Shown here: piece by piece, positions 17,812-26,606 of the stretch | Position numbering within the stretch: position 1 is the first letter of the stretch | Layout: every line of letters starts with the position of its first letter | Source of the DNA: Labilibacter sediminis | GTDB taxonomy: Bacteria; Bacteroidota; Bacteroidia; Bacteroidales; Marinilabiliaceae | Direction of reading: 5' to 3' | Length of the DNA: 64,000 bases | Assembly: GCF_005877885.1 (NCBI RefSeq) | Contig: NZ_VCHY01000001.1 | Location: forward strand, 496,001 to 560,000 | Program-made: the position numbers and the translations under genes | Notes under the pieces: model-generated | Told to the model about the DNA's origin: nothing | What the model saw: only the letters and a program-made list of their open reading frames with translations | Databases searched by the model: none

Positions 17812-19569
17812 CTATCTCATTAACTTATACTGTTCAAATTCCCTGTAGTAATTATCACCACCTTCACCATCACCTGTCATTTTATTTTCTATAATTTCAT
17901 CAATACTCATTTCACCACCAATCATTTCAGACAAAAATTTCATTGAATCACCTTTGTGAAATTTGTCATATTCGACAAGTATATTATTCTCATAATCATC
18001 TGTCTCTATAACATACCTATTTGTGTGATTAGAGCAATATACACTTATATTAACAAAGTTACTCACAATTTCGAGTCTATAAACGTGTTGAACTCCCCTA
18101 TTACCACCATATACTTTACTCTTCCAACATTTATAAATATCACTTTCTTTACTTACTCTATTTACAACAACTTTTTCAATATTCTCTCTGCAGAACTTAG
18201 CGAAATTTTTTGCAGTTAAGATTTCAGAATTGTAACCTATTACTTTATTAGTATACAACTCAATACTCTTTTCTATATCTATTAACTGACTAGTATATAT
18301 CCTTATATCATCTTCATTTCGTTTAATAATATTCCTATGCTTACCAACATCGCTTTCAAGCTCATCTAAAGTAAATAAGTCCTTTTTATATAACTCCTTT
18401 AATTTATTTGCTTGACGTTTATTTTCAGATATAATCTCTTCACAACCTTTTATTTTAAATTTTACTTCATCCAACTCACCCATTAATTCAACCTTTTTTT
18501 CTTCTAAAAAAGATGAGTTATTAAAAGAGTATAGTGCAAAATCAAGTATTATACTATTTACGAGGTCTGCATTTATATTAATGCACTTTTTAACATCAAT
18601 ATCAGATGTTTTATACACATTGTTTTTGCATCTATAGTATGTGCTATGCTCCCTTTTTTTATCTGCATAATTCAACCATAAATTTTGACCACAATTACCA
18701 CATTTGACTATTTCACTTAAGGGGTGTGTGTTACGTTGATTCTTACCCCGTTGATAATCATTTGTGTTACTTTTATATTTTTCAGCATTATCACTTAAAA
18801 TTGCTTGAACTTTATTAAATATTGAATTATCAATAATTTGTGGCACTTTATATTTATTTCCCTTGTATTCATACCAACCATTATATTTAGTATTTGTGAG
18901 CATCTTTTTTATAGTAGGTGTTGACCACCCTTTACCCTTTTTTGTCTTTCCGACTTCTTGACTTAAAAAATGATTTATTTTAAAAATTTTCTTTTCCTCT
19001 ATAAATTTTTGAAACATTTCTTCAACTATAGATGCTTCTTTCTCATTTATTACATATTTTTTATCCACCACCTTGTACCCAAACAAGGGATAGGCTGTCA
19101 AAATATGCCCCTTATTACAAGCATTAACCAGGCCACTCTTTATTCTATCAACTAACTGAACTCTTTCATTCTCTGCCAATGCAGATACGATATTTACCAT
19201 TAATTGAGATTGAAAATTTAATGACCCATCATCATTTAAAGTGTAGAATTTCAGATCATTCAAATAAAGATTTATTTTATTCTCGTTGAAATAGTTGATT
19301 GTGGTTAGTACATCAATATTATTTCTTCCGAGCCTAGATATCTCTGTACAAAGAATCAACTTTATCTCCTCAGCCTCTATAAAATTCATCATATTCTTGA
19401 ATTCCACCCTATCAATAGTTTGTACCTTTCCACTAGCAATTTCTTCAAAAACTTTTACTACTTTTACGCCATTGTTTTTGGCAAAATTTTTCAATTCAAG
19501 CTCTTGACGCTCAACGTTTTGCTTAGCTCTATTTGTCGATATACGAGAATAAATAACTGCTTTTTTCAT
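17812..19569 (-). CDS. Large serine recombinase (phage integrase)
   Basis: 585 residues from the ATG at 19569. The N-terminal resolvase domain begins MKKAVIYSRISTNR, with catalytic Ser8 and Arg9, and includes LILCTEISRLGRNN (about 71-84) and ENERVQLVDRIKSGL (about 133-147). A recombinase domain follows (GWSTPTIKKMLTNTKYNGWY). A zinc ribbon uses Cys290, Cys293, Cys314 and Cys329, and a coiled coil spans about 365-440. A longer frame upstream runs back into the ABC-F gene and is rejected. It would integrate and excise the prophage. Its place at the very end of the element, facing away from the host gene, is typical because attP lies beside the integrase gene. Confidence 0.93.
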   Translation of the reverse strand: MKKAVIYSRISTNRAKQNVERQELELKNFAKNNGVKVVKVFEEIASGKVQTIDRVEFKNMMNFIEAEEIKLILCTEISRLGRNNIDVLTTINYFNENKINLYLNDLKFYTLNDDGSLNFQSQLMVNIVSALAENERVQLVDRIKSGLVNACNKGHILTAYPLFGYKVVDKKYVINEKEASIVEEMFQKFIEEKKIFKINHFLSQEVGKTKKGKGWSTPTIKKMLTNTKYNGWYEYKGNKYKVPQIIDNSIFNKVQAILSDNAEKYKSNTNDYQRGKNQRNTHPLSEIVKCGNCGQNLWLNYADKKREHSTYYRCKNNVYKTSDIDVKKCININADLVNSIILDFALYSFNNSSFLEEKKVELMGELDEVKFKIKGCEEIISENKRQANKLKELYKKDLFTLDELESDVGKHRNIIKRNEDDIRIYTSQLIDIEKSIELYTNKVIGYNSEILTAKNFAKFCRENIEKVVVNRVSKESDIYKCWKSKVYGGNRGVQHVYRLEIVSNFVNISVYCSNHTNRYVIETDDYENNILVEYDKFHKGDSMKFLSEMIGGEMSIDEIIENKMTGDGEGGDNYYREFEQYKLMR

Positions 19570-19610
19570 AAAGTAAATATACAAAAGAAAAAATGAGTAG
19601 CACAACCGCA
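19570..19610. other. Probable prophage-host junction (attL/attR)
   Basis: Only 23 bp separate the recombinase start from the ABC-F start. Phage-type sequence ends here and host core sequence begins, so the attachment junction must lie in this gap or in the first codons of the ABC-F gene. The core cannot be fixed because the other prophage end is outside the window. On the minus strand TATATTTA resembles a -7 box for the recombinase. Confidence 0.6.
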
Positions 19611-21470
19611 TACCTCTCAGTAGAAGAATTAACCCATCATTGGGGAGACATAAGATTATTTTCCGACTTAAACTTTGGCATATCTGAAGGTCAAAAGATT
19701 GGATTAATCGCCAGAAATGGTACCGGTAAAACAACATTATTAAATATATTGGCCGGTAAACTGCTGGGCGACAAAGGTAAAGTAACCTACAGAAAAGGCA
19801 TTAAAGTAGGTTACCTTTCTCAGTTACCTGAGCTTAATATTAACAATTCGGTTATTGAGGAAATTTTCGCATCAGAGAATCCCCAGGTTATTGCTATTAA
19901 AGCCTACGAAAAAGCCCTTGCTGACCAAAACCACGATGCCTTAGGCCATCTAATTGAAGAGTTGGATAAACTGAATGCCTGGGATTTTGAATCACGCATT
20001 AAACAAATACTCTCGCAACTTAAAATTACCAATTTCGATCAATTGATCAGCCAACTATCCGGCGGTCAAAAAAAGCGGGTTGCACTGGCCAATATTTTAA
20101 TAAACGAGCCTGACTTTCTAATATTGGATGAGCCTACTAACCATCTTGACCTGGAAATGATTGAATGGCTCGAAGGCTATTTGGAACGATCCAAAGCAAC
20201 CTTAATGATGGTGACCCACGACAGGTACTTTTTAGACAGGGTTTGTAATGAAATTTATGAGCTGGCAGATCAAAGTTTATACTATTACAAGGGTAACTAC
20301 CAATACTTTTTAGAAAAAAGAGAAGAACGAATTCAAACACAAAATGCTCAGGTTGAAAAGGCTAAAAACCTTTTAAAGAAAGAGCAAGACTGGATGAACC
20401 GAATGCCTCAGGCAAGGGCTACCAAAGCAAAATACCGTATTGATGCTTTTCATGACTTAAAGAAAAAAGCGCATAGCGGAATCACTGAGCAATCCATTAA
20501 TTTAGATATTAAAGCTACCCGACTTGGTAAAAAAATCATTGAATGTCATGGATTAAATAAATCCTTTGGCGATTTAAAAATATTGGATGACTTCAATTAT
20601 AAGTTTGCCCAGGGCGAAAAGGTGGGCATTATTGGTAAAAATGGTACAGGCAAATCTACCTTCCTAAATACCATTACCGGAGCAATAACGCCGGATTCCG
20701 GATACCTTGAGACAGGAGAAACTGTTGTTATCGGTTATTATCGTCAGGATGGAATGAAAATAGACAATGACAAAAAAGTTATTGATATTATTTCTGATAT
20801 CTCGGAGCATATTACGCTGGGATCGGGTAACTCAATGAGCCCTGCGCAATTTTTACGACACTTTCTTTTTTCCAATGAAATGCACCATGTACAGGTAGAT
20901 AATCTAAGTGGCGGGGAAAAGAAAAGGCTATACCTGATGACAGTATTAATGAAAAATCCAAACTTTCTGATACTGGATGAGCCTACAAACGATCTGGATA
21001 TTTTTACCCTAAATCTTTTGGAAGAGTACCTGCAGAACTTTAAGGGCTGCGTAATCATTGTTTCGCACGACAGATATTTTATGGATAAAATTGTGGATCA
21101 CTTATTTGTATTTGAAGGCCAGGGTAATATCAAAGACTTCCCTGGTAATTACACTATCTACCATAATTTTAAACTGGAAGAAGAAAAGGCTCAAAAAAAA
21201 GTAGAGAAAGTAAAAAAAGAACCTGCAGCCAAAACTACAGTAAAAGACAAACCACGAAAGTTGTCTTTTAAAGAGAAAAAGGAATTAGAAGAGATTGAAC
21301 GCGAAATGGATGAACTAAACACAGAAAAAACTGACATTGAAAACGATTTGAATTCGGGATTACTGGATGCTGAATCCTTAACCGAAAAATCAAAAAGACT
21401 CAATGAGGTGATGTCTATTTTAGATGAAAAAGAATTTAGATGGCTGGAGTTAAGCGAAATTGAAGGTTAA
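19593..21470 (+). CDS. ABC-F family ATPase
   Basis: 625 residues with two ABC domains and no membrane segments. Domain 1 shows Walker A ARNGTGKTTLL near residue 40, signature LSGGQKKRVALA and Walker B FLILDEPTNHLDLE. Domain 2 shows GKNGTGKSTFL, LSGGEKKRLYLM and FLILDEPTNDLD. The inter-domain linker (EKREERIQTQNAQVEKAKNLLKKEQDWMNRMPQARATKAKYR) and a C-terminal coiled coil rich in Lys/Glu are those of ribosome-associated ABC-F factors (Uup/EttA-like). These proteins act in the ribosomal E site. The prophage lies against its start codon, so its original upstream region has been displaced or replaced. Confidence 0.93.
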   Translation: MSSTTAYLSVEELTHHWGDIRLFSDLNFGISEGQKIGLIARNGTGKTTLLNILAGKLLGDKGKVTYRKGIKVGYLSQLPELNINNSVIEEIFASENPQVIAIKAYEKALADQNHDALGHLIEELDKLNAWDFESRIKQILSQLKITNFDQLISQLSGGQKKRVALANILINEPDFLILDEPTNHLDLEMIEWLEGYLERSKATLMMVTHDRYFLDRVCNEIYELADQSLYYYKGNYQYFLEKREERIQTQNAQVEKAKNLLKKEQDWMNRMPQARATKAKYRIDAFHDLKKKAHSGITEQSINLDIKATRLGKKIIECHGLNKSFGDLKILDDFNYKFAQGEKVGIIGKNGTGKSTFLNTITGAITPDSGYLETGETVVIGYYRQDGMKIDNDKKVIDIISDISEHITLGSGNSMSPAQFLRHFLFSNEMHHVQVDNLSGGEKKRLYLMTVLMKNPNFLILDEPTNDLDIFTLNLLEEYLQNFKGCVIIVSHDRYFMDKIVDHLFVFEGQGNIKDFPGNYTIYHNFKLEEEKAQKKVEKVKKEPAAKTTVKDKPRKLSFKEKKELEEIEREMDELNTEKTDIENDLNSGLLDAESLTEKSKRLNEVMSILDEKEFRWLELSEIEG

Positions 21471-21605
21471 TGTTTGTATATATATTCAATTTATATACAC
21501 TGATAAATTATTACTAAAAAAGGTCTTTTAGTTCTAATTTAAACTTAAACTATGATTTTTAAGTTAATTTCTTATTTAAAATTTTTATAACGTATAAATT
21601 TATAC

Positions 21606-21613
21606 TATTTTTG
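21606..21613 (+). promoter_or_regulatory. Bacteroidota -7 box for the Phe/Tyr operon
   Basis: TATTTTTG matches the TAnnTTTG consensus exactly. Transcription would begin about 7 nt further on, some 15 nt before the leader peptide start at 21635. A TTG at the -33 position is not evident (TTT instead). Confidence 0.6.
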
Positions 21614-21634
21614 ACGCCCATAAAGCAGATAGAA

Positions 21635-21712
21635 ATGACCCACAATGTATTTTTTTACAACTTTTATTTTTACTTTTTTGGATTTAGCAATCAAAAAGAG
21701 GTGGGTATATAG
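21635..21712 (+). CDS. Phe/Tyr-rich leader peptide of the aromatic operon
   Basis: A 25-codon frame starts MTHN, runs VFFYNFYFYFFGF and ends SNQKEVGI then TAG. Ten of its twelve residues between 6 and 17 are Phe (seven) or Tyr (three). It lies 69 nt upstream of the prephenate dehydratase gene and just before a terminator. Seven Phe and three Tyr codons would sense charged tRNA-Phe and tRNA-Tyr, the end products of this operon. The design equals the pheL peptide of enteric bacteria, but the sequence is unrelated. Confidence 0.85.
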   Translation: MTHNVFFYNFYFYFFGFSNQKEVGI

Positions 21713-21765
21713 TATATAAATTTCAAAAAAATTTAAAGTCCCACCCAAACAGGTGGGACTTTTTT
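21700..21765 (+). promoter_or_regulatory. Transcription attenuator (antiterminator/terminator pair)
   Basis: The terminator is a perfect 11-bp stem AAAGTCCCACC (21735-21745) / GGTGGGACTTT (21752-21762), loop CAAACA, and six U (21760-21765). GGTGGG at 21700-21705, inside the last codons of the leader peptide, can pair with CCCACC (21740-21745) to make a competing antiterminator. CCCAC at 21639-21643, in codons 2-3 of the leader, can pair with GTGGG (21701-21705), giving the 1:2 hairpin. A ribosome at the stop codon (21710) would cover region 2 and permit termination; one stalled on the Phe/Tyr run would leave region 2 free. All four classical regions are thus present. Confidence 0.85.
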
Positions 21766-21780
21766 ATTATTAATAAGGTA

Positions 21781-22686
21781 ATGACTAAGATAAAACAAGT
21801 AGCAATTCAAGGAGGAGCTGGTTCGAACCATGAAATTGCGGCAAAAGCATTTTTTAATACTGATAATTTAGAAATGGTTCCCTGCCAAACTTTTGAAGAA
21901 CTGTTTGCTACTTTAAAAGAAGATGATTCTAAATATGGAATCATGGCTATCGAAAATACCCTTGTAGGTAGTATACTACAAAACTACACGCTACTTAAAG
22001 ACTCTGGTTTAGTTATCATTGGTGAGTACAAACTACGTATCAAGCACCAGCTATTAACGCTACCGGGCCAATCCATTGAGGACATAAAGGAAGTTCATTC
22101 ACATCCCATGGCTTTAGCACAGTGCCGTGAATTTTTCAAGGCCTATCCACGTATTAAACTTATTGCCAGTGACGACACTGCATTAAGTGCCAAATGGATA
22201 CAAGACAATCAACTTACGGGAGTTGCTGCTATTGCTCCAGAGTTGGCTGCAGAAAAATACCAATTAGAAATCATGGCAAGGGATATTGAAACTAACAAGC
22301 GTAATTTTACACGTTTCTTAATCATCTCTGATAAAGGTAAAACAGAAGTAGAAGATCTGCTGATTAACGATAAGGTAAACAAGTCATCACTCGTATTTGC
22401 GTTACCCCACTCCGAAGGTAGTCTTTCTAAAGTATTATCGATTCTTGCTTTTTACAATATTAACTTATCAAAAATTCAGTCTTTGCCAATTGTTGGTCAC
22501 GAATGGGAATACCTGTTTTTTATTGATTTGGTTTTTGAAGATTACAACCGATACCTTCAATCCATTGAAGCTATTCGCCCATTAACCAAAGGACTAAAAA
22601 ACCTTGGAGAATATCATGTAGGCAGAAGATCCTATGATACAACAAGTAATGATAACAAACCTCTATCCGAGCAAAAAACATTTTAA
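21781..22686 (+). CDS. pheA: Prephenate dehydratase
   Basis: 301 residues. The catalytic domain opens KQVAIQGGAGSNHEIAAKAFF and contains YGIMAIENTLVGSI, HQLLTLPG, VHSHPMALAQC and NFTRFLIIS with the TRF motif at 177-179, whose Thr is needed for decarboxylation/dehydration. An ACT domain follows from about 202 (SSLVFALPHSEGSLSKVLSIL, then LSKIQSLPIVGHEWEYLFFID), the feedback site for phenylalanine. It makes phenylpyruvate from prephenate and is first in a four-gene run with 3- to 80-nt gaps. The attenuator upstream indicates control by Phe/Tyr supply. Confidence 0.95.
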   Translation: MTKIKQVAIQGGAGSNHEIAAKAFFNTDNLEMVPCQTFEELFATLKEDDSKYGIMAIENTLVGSILQNYTLLKDSGLVIIGEYKLRIKHQLLTLPGQSIEDIKEVHSHPMALAQCREFFKAYPRIKLIASDDTALSAKWIQDNQLTGVAAIAPELAAEKYQLEIMARDIETNKRNFTRFLIISDKGKTEVEDLLINDKVNKSSLVFALPHSEGSLSKVLSILAFYNINLSKIQSLPIVGHEWEYLFFIDLVFEDYNRYLQSIEAIRPLTKGLKNLGEYHVGRRSYDTTSNDNKPLSEQKTF

Positions 22687-22689
22687 ACA

Positions 22690-23847
22690 ATGAGCATACA
22701 ACCTGCCAATAGAATAAGTGAAGTAAAAGAATATTACTTCTCTAAAAAACTTAGAGAAATTGATGATATGCGCAAGCAGGGATTTGATGTCATAAACTTA
22801 GGCATTGGAAACCCCGACAGGTCGCCTTCTGAGCTTGTTCTTGAAGAGCTAAACCTAAGTGCAGCTGATAAAGGTAGCCATGGATATCAAAGTTACATAG
22901 GTATTCCTGAGTTAAGAGATGCATTTTCGAAATGGTACAATAAATATTTTAAGGTAGAACTTAATCCTGCCAACGAAATCCTTCCCCTTATGGGATCAAA
23001 AGAAGGAATTATGCATATCTCTATGGCCTTTTTAAATAAAGGCGATCAGGTACTCGTTCCGAATCCGGGTTATCCAACATACTCTTCTGTTTCTAATTTA
23101 GTTGAAGCTGAGATGATCAATTACGAACTTAAAGAAGAGTTAAATTGGCAACCTGATTTTGATGAATTGGAAAAACTGGATTTATCAAAGGTAAAACTCA
23201 TGTGGGTAAACTACCCTAATATGCCAACAGGTGCAAATGCTACAATTGAGCTTTTTGAAAAGCTTGTTGCATTTGGTAAAAAGCATGAAATATTAGTTTG
23301 CAACGACAATCCTTATAGTTTTATCTTAAATGATAATCCTCTTAGTATATTAAGCATTAAAGGAGCTAAAGACATTGCCATTGAACTAAATTCATTAAGT
23401 AAGTCGCACAATATGGCAGGGTGGCGAATTGGTATGATTGCTGCAAATCCAACCTTTATTCAGTACATTTTAAGGGTAAAAAGTAACATGGATAGCGGCA
23501 TGTTTAAACCATTACAATTAGCAGCTGTTAAAGCTTTAGGTTTAGATAAAGATTGGTATCAGGAGGTGAATGAAGAATACATACAACGAAGAGAATTGGT
23601 TTGGGAGATTATGGACATTTTAGGATGTCAATACGATAAAAAACAATCAGGTATGTTTATCTGGGCAAAAATTCCTAACGAAATTGAATCATCCATTCAA
23701 CTATCTGATAAAATTTTAAATAAGACCCATGTATTTATCACTCCAGGATCGATATTTGGAAAACAAGGAGATCGCTATATCAGAATTTCTCTTTGCTCAA
23801 AACAAGAAATATTAAAAGAATCAATAAATAGAATAAAAACAGCGTAA
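22690..23847 (+). CDS. Class I/II aminotransferase, probable aromatic aminotransferase
   Basis: 385 residues of PLP fold type I. Visible are DVINLGIGNPDRSP, GSKEGIMHISMAFLNKGDQVLVPNPGYPTY, the WVNYPNMPTGA loop, NDNPYSFI, and the PLP lysine in NSLSKSHNMAGWRIGM. A C-terminal GDRYIRISLC carries the substrate-carboxylate Arg. It lies 3 nt after pheA and before the DAHP synthase, so it most likely transaminates phenylpyruvate and 4-hydroxyphenylpyruvate. Related proteins act in lysine synthesis; the context favours the aromatic role. Confidence 0.85.
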   Translation: MSIQPANRISEVKEYYFSKKLREIDDMRKQGFDVINLGIGNPDRSPSELVLEELNLSAADKGSHGYQSYIGIPELRDAFSKWYNKYFKVELNPANEILPLMGSKEGIMHISMAFLNKGDQVLVPNPGYPTYSSVSNLVEAEMINYELKEELNWQPDFDELEKLDLSKVKLMWVNYPNMPTGANATIELFEKLVAFGKKHEILVCNDNPYSFILNDNPLSILSIKGAKDIAIELNSLSKSHNMAGWRIGMIAANPTFIQYILRVKSNMDSGMFKPLQLAAVKALGLDKDWYQEVNEEYIQRRELVWEIMDILGCQYDKKQSGMFIWAKIPNEIESSIQLSDKILNKTHVFITPGSIFGKQGDRYIRISLCSKQEILKESINRIKTA

Positions 23848-23859
23848 CAGAATATAAAG

Positions 23860-24939
23860 ATGGTAAAATTAGATCTAGAAAAAATCAGTCTTCCGGGTTT
23901 AGAGCTCGAACGTCCTTGGATGATTGCCGGACCATGTAGTGCCGAAACAGAAGAGCAAGTGTTAGAAACTGCCAAGCAACTTTCGGCAAATGGCTTCAAA
24001 ATTTTTAGAGCAGGTATATGGAAACCAAGAACCAGACCCGGTGCTTTTGAAGGTGTAGGTACCATTGGTTTACCCTGGCTTAAAAGAGTCAAAGAAGAAA
24101 CTGGTATGTATGTTGGAACGGAAGTAGCCAATGCACACCATGTATTTGAAGCTATTAAACACGGAATTGATATTCTTTGGGTTGGTGCAAGAACTACTGC
24201 AAACCCATTTGCGGTGCAAGAAATTGCTGATGCACTTAAAGGAGTAGACATACCTGTATTGGTAAAGAACCCTGTTAACCCTGATTTAGAGTTATGGATT
24301 GGTGCTTTAGAACGAATTAACCAGGCCGGCATTAAAAAACTGGCTGCTATTCACCGCGGTTTCTCAACCTACGATAAAACTAAATACCGTAATCATCCTC
24401 AATGGCAAATTCCTATTGAGCTAAAAAGAAGAATTCCTGAGTTACCAATTATCTGTGATCCATCTCACATCAGTGGTAAAAGTGAATTGATTTACGAGAT
24501 ATCTCAAGAAGCTATGGACTTAAGTTTTGATGGTTTATTAGTGGAGTCACACCGTTGTCCTGAAAAAGCATGGAGTGATGCCAGCCAGCAGGTAACTCCA
24601 GACGATCTAAAAGCAATTACTGACAAGATTGTTCTTCGTAAACCAAAAATTGGTGAAAAACCAAGGGTTACTCTTGATGAATTACGTCAGGAAATAGACA
24701 AATTAGATACTTCTGTATTAGAGGTTCTACAAAAGAGAATGCAAATTTCGGAAGCCATTGGTAAGTACAAGAAAGAAAATGATATTACCATCTTACAAAC
24801 TCGTCGTTACGATGAAATCATGAACAATCGTAAGGCCAAAGGTGCTAAAATGGGATTATCAGATGAATTCCTTACCAAACTTTTCGAGAGTATTCACGAA
24901 GAGTCTGTTACGCGTCAAAATAAAATAATGAACCAATAA
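23860..24939 (+). CDS. Bifunctional DAHP synthase / chorismate mutase
   Basis: 359 residues in two parts. Residues about 1-260 are a class I DAHP synthase of the KDPG-aldolase-like subgroup: MIAGPCSAETEEQV, FRAGIWKPRTRPGAFEGVG, VLVKNPVNPDLELWIGAL, AIHRGFS, ICDPSHISG and LLVESHRCPEKAWSDASQQV. Residues about 270-355 are a type II chorismate mutase helix bundle, LDELRQEIDKLDTSVLEVLQKRMQISEAIGKYKKEN, with the arginine and lysine that bind chorismate. The fusion joins the first shikimate step to the Phe/Tyr branch and is common in Bacteroidota. The mutase domain is likely to be the allosteric sensor. Confidence 0.93.
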   Translation: MVKLDLEKISLPGLELERPWMIAGPCSAETEEQVLETAKQLSANGFKIFRAGIWKPRTRPGAFEGVGTIGLPWLKRVKEETGMYVGTEVANAHHVFEAIKHGIDILWVGARTTANPFAVQEIADALKGVDIPVLVKNPVNPDLELWIGALERINQAGIKKLAAIHRGFSTYDKTKYRNHPQWQIPIELKRRIPELPIICDPSHISGKSELIYEISQEAMDLSFDGLLVESHRCPEKAWSDASQQVTPDDLKAITDKIVLRKPKIGEKPRVTLDELRQEIDKLDTSVLEVLQKRMQISEAIGKYKKENDITILQTRRYDEIMNNRKAKGAKMGLSDEFLTKLFESIHEESVTRQNKIMNQ

Positions 24940-24951
24940 AGGTCAGTGGGT

Positions 24952-25012
24952 AGTTATCAGTAATCAGTTATCATACTGGTTACTGTTAACTGATTACTGT
25001 TAACTGATAACT
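24952..25012. repeat. Palindromic repeat in the aromatic operon
   Basis: CAGTAATCAGTTA (24958-24970) pairs with TAACTGATTACTG (24987-24999), and AGTTATCAG (24952-24960) can pair with CTGATAACT (25004-25012). Several overlapping copies of the unit GTTAACTGAT/AGTTATCAGT make up the block. It fills the 80-nt gap before tyrA, resembles REP/MITE-type intergenic palindromes, and could affect mRNA stability between the two genes. Confidence 0.65.
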
Positions 25013-25019
25013 GAGCAAT

Positions 25020-25796
25020 ATGAAAATCTGTATTTTGGGTGCCGGAAAAATGGGTACATGGTTGACCGATGCACTTTGCCTAGATCACGAAGTAGCTATT
25101 TACGACCCAAATCTTGAAAAATTAAAATACATTTTCAATACGCAGCGCCTGACCAAACTGGAAGAAATAACCCAGTTTGAGCCTGAATTGCTGATTAATG
25201 CTGTAACCCTTAAATATACAATTGCAGCTTTTAAAGAAGTGATTCCTTATTTACCTAAAAGCTGTATTATTTCCGATATTTCTTCAGTTAAAACCGGATT
25301 TAAACAGTTTTACGAAGAAGTTGGGATGCGCTATGTTTCCACACACCCTATGTTCGGACCAACTTTTGGTAATTTAAAGTCATTGCAAGAGCATCATGCT
25401 ATTATAATTTCAGAAGGTGATCATTTAGGAAAAGCATTTTTTAAAGACTTCTTTAGTACGCTTGGCCTTAATATTCATGAGTACACCTTTATCGAACATG
25501 ATGAAACCATTGCATACTCACTATCTATCCCATTTTCATCAACACTGGTATTTGCTGCTTGCATGAAAAAACAAGATGCTCCTGGTACCACTTTTAAAAA
25601 GCATTTTGATATTGCCAAAGGCCTATTGGGAGAGGATGATTATCTTTTATCTGAGATTCTTTTTAACCCGTTTACAGGTGGTCAGGTAGAAAAAATCAGA
25701 CTTAAACTAAAACAACTATTGGCAATTATTGAAGATAAAGACACAGAAAAAATGAAAGAGTTTTTATCTGACGTAAGAAAAAATTTGGAAGAATAG
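25020..25796 (+). CDS. tyrA: Prephenate dehydrogenase
   Basis: 258 residues. A Rossmann start, MKICILGAGKMGTWLTDALC, binds NAD(P); CIISDISSVKTGF and RYVSTHPMFGPTFGNL are the catalytic-His and substrate motifs of the TyrA family; the helical dimer domain follows (HDETIAYSLSIPFSS). It oxidises and decarboxylates prephenate to 4-hydroxyphenylpyruvate. It is the last gene of the operon; a hairpin lies at its stop codon. No ACT domain is present, so end-product control must come from elsewhere, for example the attenuator. Confidence 0.92.
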   Translation: MKICILGAGKMGTWLTDALCLDHEVAIYDPNLEKLKYIFNTQRLTKLEEITQFEPELLINAVTLKYTIAAFKEVIPYLPKSCIISDISSVKTGFKQFYEEVGMRYVSTHPMFGPTFGNLKSLQEHHAIIISEGDHLGKAFFKDFFSTLGLNIHEYTFIEHDETIAYSLSIPFSSTLVFAACMKKQDAPGTTFKKHFDIAKGLLGEDDYLLSEILFNPFTGGQVEKIRLKLKQLLAIIEDKDTEKMKEFLSDVRKNLEE

Positions 25797-25822
25797 GGTA
25801 AAACCTACCCTATCTTCTTTTT
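25793..25822 (+). terminator. Terminator of the aromatic operon
   Basis: ATAGGGTA (25793-25800), loop AAACC, TACCCTAT (25806-25813), then CTTCTTTTT. The stem includes the tyrA stop codon. Confidence 0.65.
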
Positions 25823-25828
25823 AAGCCC

Positions 25829-26356
25829 TTACTTTATCTTATCAAGAAACTCTTGCCCAACCTTCCATTCTCCGAATCCGGAATCTGAATTTATATGACC
25901 TGCATCTCCTATACCAATTAACTCACTACCCCACTGACCTGCCAATTTTGTAGATGCTTCATAACTGGCCCATGGATCATTGGCACTGGCTACAAATACA
26001 GTAGGAAAAGGAATGACTTCTTCAGGAACCGGCAAAAATGAATCCAACTCATATTCCGATGAAACATCATTTAAATTGGGTGGCGCCACTATTAAAGCTC
26101 CTTTAATTTTCTTTTGAAACTTTTTAACCCAATGGGCTAAAGTAATACCTCCTAAACTATGACTAATAAAAACCACTTGAGACAAGTCATAACCTTCAAC
26201 GGCCTTTTCTACTGTATTAATCCAATCTTCACGATTGGGCTTCTCCCAATTCTCTTGTTCAATACGCTTACAATTGGGTAATACTCGTTCAAAATGACTT
26301 TGCCAATGATTATTATCCGATCCTCCAAGTCCTGGTAATGTAAAATAGTATATCAT
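25829..26356 (-). CDS. RBBP9/YdeN-type serine hydrolase
   Basis: 175 residues from the ATG at 26356 (MIYYFTLPGLGGSDNNHWQ); an in-frame ATG six codons upstream is less likely. It is a small alpha/beta hydrolase with nucleophile motif ISHSLGG, acid SANDPWASYE and catalytic His in IGDAGHINSDSGFGEW, an arrangement specific to the RBBP9/YdeN family. The natural substrate is unknown. It stands alone and converges with tyrA. Confidence 0.88.
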   Translation of the reverse strand: MIYYFTLPGLGGSDNNHWQSHFERVLPNCKRIEQENWEKPNREDWINTVEKAVEGYDLSQVVFISHSLGGITLAHWVKKFQKKIKGALIVAPPNLNDVSSEYELDSFLPVPEEVIPFPTVFVASANDPWASYEASTKLAGQWGSELIGIGDAGHINSDSGFGEWKVGQEFLDKIK

Positions 26357-26606
26357 ATAATTCTTATATATCAAAAGTTAATAATTACTGCAAAAATAAC
26401 ACTTCATTACTAATCAAACTCTGGCTAACACATTTTGTTTTAGCCACTACAAGCTTTAATTCATACTATTTCTATAGATCTTATATGATTTGTATTTTTT
26501 ATATACTTTAGTGACATCAATTTAGCTCATTTATAACCCATGTAGTTTTTGATGAAAATAGATTAAAAACAGCTGCTCTATATATTCAAATATTGTTTAG
26601 TGTTTG

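Follow-up and report, generated by a model that had tools for sequence, protein, structure and literature searches.

The pheA gene of Labilibacter sediminis, carried on the 64,000-nt stretch of DNA analysed here (the window), is preceded by a short open reading frame (ORF) rich in phenylalanine and tyrosine codons and by a hairpin with a run of T residues. This raises the questions whether the region constitutes a transcription attenuator that responds to aromatic amino acids, and how far such a device extends among related bacteria. The results presented below indicate, with a probability that we put at about 0.9, that the element is a classical ribosome-mediated transcription attenuator. Judged from sequence comparisons, it is most likely a textbook switch of the E. 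coli type that is widespread in the class Bacteroidia and turns genes on in amino-acid shortage.

An earlier inspection of the letters (the sequence-only reading) had described an exact -7 box, a 25-codon ORF with seven Phe and three Tyr codons in twelve positions and an 11-bp terminator with six U, and the present analysis agrees on each of these parts (Table 1). The leader ATG lies 29 nt downstream of the start of the TAnnTTTG box, and the ten aromatic codons, which would be the control codons, fall within codons 6-17 (21650-21685). The terminator (21735-21762) has 11 pairs and a 6-nt loop, with a folding energy of -18.3 kcal/mol (z -5.4 against shuffles); three of the six T residues are counted in its stem. 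The motif GGTGGG near the end of the ORF had been said to be able to pair with the 5′ half of the terminator. The corresponding 2:3 hairpin has an energy of -9.7 kcal/mol (z -2.3) and was equalled by 2 of 200 shuffles. Folding of the leader, which had been suggested as a check, gave a minimum-energy structure of -36.4 kcal/mol for positions 21619-21775 (z -4.3), equalled by none of 200 shuffles.

Table 1. Features of the pheA locus in the window, listed by position.
Feature	Coordinates	Strand	Evidence
TAnnTTTG promoter -7 box, TATTTTTG	21606..21613	+	read from sequence
Leader peptide ORF, 25 codons, MTHNVFFYNFYFYFFGFSNQKEVGI*	21635..21712	+	ORF translation; present in relatives too
Possible region 1 (ACCCAC), protector strand	21638..21643	+	minimum-energy fold pairs it with 21701-21706
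Region 2 (GGTGGG), antiterminator strand, within the 3′ end of the leader ORF	21700..21705	+	2:3 fold, co-variation
Region 3, 5′ arm of terminator; CCCACC at 21740-21745 pairable with region 2	21735..21745	+	hairpin scan, folding
Region 4, 3′ arm of terminator and T run (21760-21765)	21752..21765	+	hairpin scan, folding
pheA, prephenate dehydratase	21781..22686	+	Pfam PDT PF00800, 196.7 bits, above cut-off
Class I/II aminotransferase gene	22690..23847	+	Pfam PF00155
DAHP synthase-chorismate mutase fusion	23860..24939	+	Pfam PF00793 and PF01817, both above cut-offs
tyrA-like prephenate dehydrogenase gene	25020..25796	+	Pfam PF02153, 35.9 bits (cut-off 26.5)
Weak terminator-like hairpin at the end of the gene set	25793..25813	+	8 pairs, 3 of them G-C

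From these parts we infer the following course of events. RNA polymerase would start just past the TAnnTTTG box and generate a leader of ~150 nt, on which a ribosome would begin the 25-codon ORF without a Shine-Dalgarno site. Poor charging of tRNA-Phe or tRNA-Tyr would stall the ribosome within codons 6-17 and leave GGTGGG free to pair with CCCACC; the terminator would then not form and the operon would be transcribed. When both tRNAs are charged, the ribosome would reach the stop codon at 21710 and cover region 2, and regions 3 and 4 would form the terminator.

The sequence-only reading had placed a pheA operon downstream, including a DAHP synthase-chorismate mutase and tyrA, and Pfam matches above cut-offs bear this out. 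The best NCBIfam prephenate dehydratase model scored 202 bits with PheA, below its cut-off of 219; the listed NCBIfam matches of the DAHP synthase-chorismate mutase and of the tyrA-like gene were likewise below cut-off, and no model above cut-off was found for the aminotransferase gene among the 25 matches listed. The closest named relatives of PheA among the matches listed are from Marinilabiliaceae (71% identity) and Carboxylicivirga (69%); identity with PheA of congeners reaches 86%. The intergenic gaps from pheA through the tyrA-like gene are 3, 12 and 80 nt, and a scan of the + strand called no terminator downstream of the attenuator until the tyrA-like gene ends. Together with the gene order, this suggests that the four genes may be transcribed as a single unit under control of the attenuator. 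Short repeats (ATCAGTTATCA, TTACTGTTAACTGAT and variants; 24950-25016) occupy most of the 80-nt gap preceding the tyrA-like gene. Upstream of the locus, an ORF that by eye looks recombinase-like (17812-19737, - strand) overlaps the start of an ABC-F type gene (19593-21470, + strand) by 145 bases, and its listed first codons are probably not the true start.

Conservation of a Phe/Tyr-rich leader ORF in relatives had been named as a way to check the proposal, and its absence as grounds for refuting it. We therefore collected pheA upstream regions from three sources: relatives, named genomes and an even draw over the phylum. This resulted in a set of 169 loci, 132 from the class Bacteroidia and 37 from outside it, after removal of two contig-end fragments with unusable upstream regions (L021, L025) and of L026, L028 and L029, whose genomes are those of L010, L015 and L014. 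The named-genome set consists of the best 80 of 590 pheA loci and for this reason leans to Bacteroidales. In the even draw, which gave 128 matching genomes, we examined the own genome plus 69 others, corresponding to all 32 from the class and 37 of the 95 from outside. A leader was scored as an ORF of 8-45 codons starting with ATG or GTG and containing at least seven F/Y/W within 12 residues. Such a leader was present in 124 of the 132 Bacteroidia upstream regions, compared to 1.1% of 1320 dinucleotide shuffles, and in 28 of the 32 Bacteroidia genomes with a pheA match in the even draw. Carriers include Bacteroides fragilis, B. finegoldii, B. xylanisolvens and Phocaeicola vulgatus. Outside the class, 3 of the 37 examined loci had a leader (L108, L125 and L128), and in these the start of PheA resembles the Bacteroidia type. 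Several exceptions within the class have features of their own: L095 has a weak leader only (5 F/Y/W in 12), a contig end cuts through the leader of L080, in the leaderless loci L130 and L133 a gap of 8 and 5 nt separates the match from the end of another long open frame, and PheA begins differently in L139 and L140, which also lack a leader. No leader was found in the pheA upstream regions of L066 and L086.

The leaders are 16-40 residues long and show little peptide likeness beyond the aromatic run; over 123 loci Phe accounts for 25% and Tyr for 17% of the residues. Four start with GTG instead of ATG (L050, L051, L087 and L131). Among nine congeners, pairwise comparison of codons 6-17 yielded 54 synonymous versus 22 nonsynonymous differences. 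There was no synonymous preference in codons 2-5 (27 versus 53) or codons 18-25 (7 versus 69). This is the pattern expected if the aromatic run counts as peptide and the tail as RNA.

A folding-based search placed a hairpin with a T run behind 123 of the 128 leaders, 120 of these in class members; a strict terminator search missed the hairpins in 26 leader-bearing loci. In these 123 loci the predicted energy of 2:3 pairing averaged -14.7 kcal/mol with the own partner versus -10.1 kcal/mol with region 3 of other loci. The own region 3 was superior to those of others in 114 of the 123, and the pairing ranked within the best 5% of shuffles in 105. A test for covarying stems, also suggested beforehand, gave the same answer when the two strands were placed independently, with nothing but the last aromatic codon to locate region 2 and nothing but the hairpin to locate region 3: the mean score was 19.5 for own partners and 13.7 for permuted ones (sd 0.28; the highest of 300 permutations was 14.5). 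Runs of at least six 2:3 pairs occurred in 108 of 123 loci with the own partner versus a mean of 62 with permuted partners, and this latter figure implies that part of the pairing is due to shared sequence. The excess was seen in the order set (73 loci; 20.3 versus 14.9) and likewise in the wider set, whose 31 loci include three outside the class (18.6 versus 13.3). In the family of the window (19 loci) no excess over permuted partners was found (18.2 versus 17.8, sd 0.35); the test is uninformative there because region 2 hardly varies, GGTGGG being invariant in a 15-row alignment. Regions 2, 3 and 4 change together across loci, for instance AGAGGTGGGT with TCCCACC, GCGAGGCTTG with AAAGCCTCGG, and AATGAGAACTTCA with GGGAGTTCTCAT. 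The co-variation and the distance from the control codons thus support the prediction of a 2:3 antiterminator that lies just past these codons and is mutually exclusive with the terminator. The pheA attenuator element is, in our view, real and old.

Pairing of CCCAC in codons 2-3 with GTGGG, which would make a protector of region 1, had been proposed as well. This proposal held in part: ACCCAC at 21638-21643 pairs in silico with GTGGGT at 21701-21706 in the minimum-energy fold of the window. Nine congeners have ACCCAC (5), ACCCAT (3) or ACTCAC (1) at this position. Of the 123 loci, 18 or 12, depending on which of two tests was used, had 1:2 pairing within the best 5% of shuffles, where ~6 are expected. 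Being near chance, these counts leave region 1 as a possible element of the window and not a general one. Where a protector is absent, the ribosome-free state should read through. A general, class-wide 1:2 protector was supported by neither test.

An exact TAnnTTTG is present at most 70 nt upstream of the leader start in 98 of 123 loci, compared to 7.5% of shuffles; this motif is given as the promoter consensus of these bacteria in the part of PMC9723704 considered here. A Shine-Dalgarno-like 4-mer at positions -20 to -4 of the leader is present in 6 of 123 loci and absent in 117, and about half of the 20 nt preceding the leader start are A. Translation of the leader therefore seems, from these sequences, to start without the usual ribosome-binding signal. 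Attenuation requires a ribosome that starts promptly and stays close behind RNA polymerase. Since the design is kept in a class in which Shine-Dalgarno-like 4-mers are rare at these leaders, the latter are ready-made reporters of transcription-translation coupling and of Shine-Dalgarno-free initiation in Bacteroides and its kin. Besides breadth, this start without a Shine-Dalgarno site is the main interest of the system.

To place region 2 relative to a stalled ribosome, we counted from the first base of the last aromatic codon to the first base within region 2 that is paired. This distance has a median of 14 nt (quartiles 12 and 16) and stays within 10-20 nt at 112 of the 123 loci. Region 2 would thus begin at about the front edge of a ribosome stalled at the last aromatic codon. 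Assuming that a ribosome at the stop codon covers positions -15 to +11, and calling region 2 covered when at least 4 nt overlap, it is covered in 82 of the 123 loci. These include the window, where the pairs are at -12 to -5 of the leader stop. In the other 41, region 2 is outside the footprint, in most of them because it is located farther upstream within the ORF. Examples are the Bacteroides and Phocaeicola loci L054, L059, L089, L094 and L102, where region 2 ends 13-17 nt upstream of the leader stop. As the leader continues beyond region 2 there (one tail reads KVEREFVCIK), a ribosome at the stop codon would leave region 2 exposed. This means that at these 41 loci the release step must differ, or that the ribosome acts in passing; it may, for example, be moving across region 2 at the moment when regions 3 and 4 appear.

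The position of region 2 bears on the possibility that the leader acts mainly on translation or on Rho-dependent termination, and not through the intrinsic terminator. Such a route would fit the uncovered loci as well as the short distance of merely 68 nt between the leader stop and the start of pheA in the window. We nevertheless regard it as very unlikely, since a hairpin with a T run follows nearly all leaders and region 2 is predicted to pair with the terminator arm. It could also be argued that the hairpin only terminates the upstream ABC-F type gene (end at 21470) and that T-rich DNA gave rise to the ORF by chance. The region is indeed very AT-rich, and short ORFs with at least seven F/Y/W per 12 residues occur in 5 of 318 tiles of 400 nt (both strands) of the window, so that TTT-rich ORFs do arise by chance; at least nine per 12 are found in a single tile, the one starting at 21601. 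In addition, four terminator-like sites in 21450-26450 compare with a shuffle mean of 3.3, which is chance level, and for this reason the weight rests on pairing and conservation. However, the attenuator hairpin is located 264 nt past the upstream stop codon with a promoter-type box in between, the leader recurs in Bacteroidia far above the shuffle frequency, and region 2 tracks region 3 across species, which makes this explanation extremely unlikely.

An arrest peptide, in which the nascent chain together with free Phe or Tyr, and not poorly charged tRNA, would stall the ribosome, is likewise improbable, if somewhat less so. Known arrest peptides require specific residues at fixed places, whereas the leaders, of 16 to 40 residues, share little peptide beyond the aromatic run; what is kept instead is the density of aromatic codons and their distance to region 2. 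In favour of an arrest peptide are the richness of the leader in one residue class and the precedent, in the part of PMC8429421 considered, of free Trp stalling ribosomes on TnaC. Ribosome-mediated attenuation, with stalling for want of charged tRNA, thus appears the best reading of the locus.

The enterobacterial pheA leader has a short ORF rich in Phe codons and an intrinsic terminator, with pheA downstream. Its covariance model (Phe_leader, RF01859) aligns to the window element over all 125 positions with 42.0 bits (E 6e-6). Because this falls short of the gathering score of 55 bits, the element would work like Phe_leader but is not filed there. When 16 loci were searched with this model, 8 matched at E 1 or better, the best again with 42.0 bits. 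Differences from the enterobacterial leader are that the Bacteroidia leaders mix in Tyr codons, that 117 of the 123 loci have no Shine-Dalgarno-like 4-mer, that the gene set in the window adds the DAHP synthase-chorismate mutase and tyrA-like genes, and that the protector is not general. At gathering thresholds, a search of the whole window against Rfam revealed only a tRNA. T-box leaders also sense tRNA charging ahead of amino-acid genes; they are not known to contain a translated leader, and the 25 Rfam matches obtained for 21550-21850 with E values of up to 10 included no T-box. Bacteroid-trp (RF01692), which from its name we take to be a trp leader, had no match with an E value of 0.1 or less in L175-L177, which include the trpE locus of the own genome, even though a Trp-rich ORF and a hairpin are present there.

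The sequence-only reading had called attenuation little described in Bacteroidota. This needs qualification, since clues are already in print. Bacteroid-trp is listed as a Bacteroidetes cis-regulatory motif (PMC2864571, in the part considered), and strong clues for leader-peptide attenuation ahead of amino-acid operons are given for Flavobacterium psychrophilum in the available part of PMC9723704, together with a structured 5′ element of pheA, without an Rfam match, in other genera of Flavobacteriaceae as well. That part of the paper gives no leader sequence, antiterminator or spread past Flavobacteriaceae. Other partial sources mention short, leader-peptide-like ORFs in B. thetaiotaomicron (PMC7366714), Phe/Tyr uORFs before shikimate genes in bacteria (PMC6429828) and a comparative attenuation survey of 2010 by Lopatovskaya et al. 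(cited in PMC4833913); the string 'Bacteroid' is absent from the main texts of PMC8632094 and PMC10219788. A class-wide pheA attenuator, 2:3 co-variation and a tandem form were not found described in the search listings and text passages that made up this survey. To this extent the claim stood, and the breadth, the 2:3 co-variation and the conserved tandem attenuators in two lineages appear to be new relative to print.

The tandem form consists of two successive Phe/Tyr leader-terminator units before pheA. It was observed in both genomes found of one genus (L106 and L181; -355 to -105 of pheA). In one family, 5 of the 21 loci examined, leaving aside L203 as the second piece of a pheA gene, have it too (L184, L186, L190, L194, which is the same as L138, and L202; -319 to -76 of pheA), and none of the 21 is without a leader. 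All 14 tandem copies received a hairpin call with a T run, and 2:3 pairing ranked in the best 5% for 11 of them, the misses being the second copies of L106, L181 and L194. We tentatively propose, at a little short of even odds, that Phe/Tyr attenuation of pheA free of Shine-Dalgarno sites is ancestral in Bacteroidia (a term drawn from breadth and not from a tree), mostly lacks a protector, and was doubled in tandem in two lineages. If so, attenuators in series would provide a sharper, two-stage gate, and a protector-less operon would read through without a ribosome.

For common bacteria of the gut and the environment, such leaders reveal the amino acid to which a given operon responds. Five further places were surveyed in the own genome (their labels include L175, L176, L177 and L180). 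No leader was found at a second homoserine dehydrogenase locus. A Thr/Ile-rich ORF (MVYNLFHTITITTTSTITPWGV) is present upstream of thrA, where a search for a terminator called none. A His leader (MTNITHHHGHHFYLL) precedes hisG, a Trp leader (MTKIVKNTWWWHWLFLN) trpE and an Ile/Val/Leu leader (MNSIFSLILIKVVLLVIIR) ilvD; behind each of these three leaders lies a hairpin with a T run. Ranked out of 200, the 2:3 pairing was first for hisG and ilvD and 61st for trpE.
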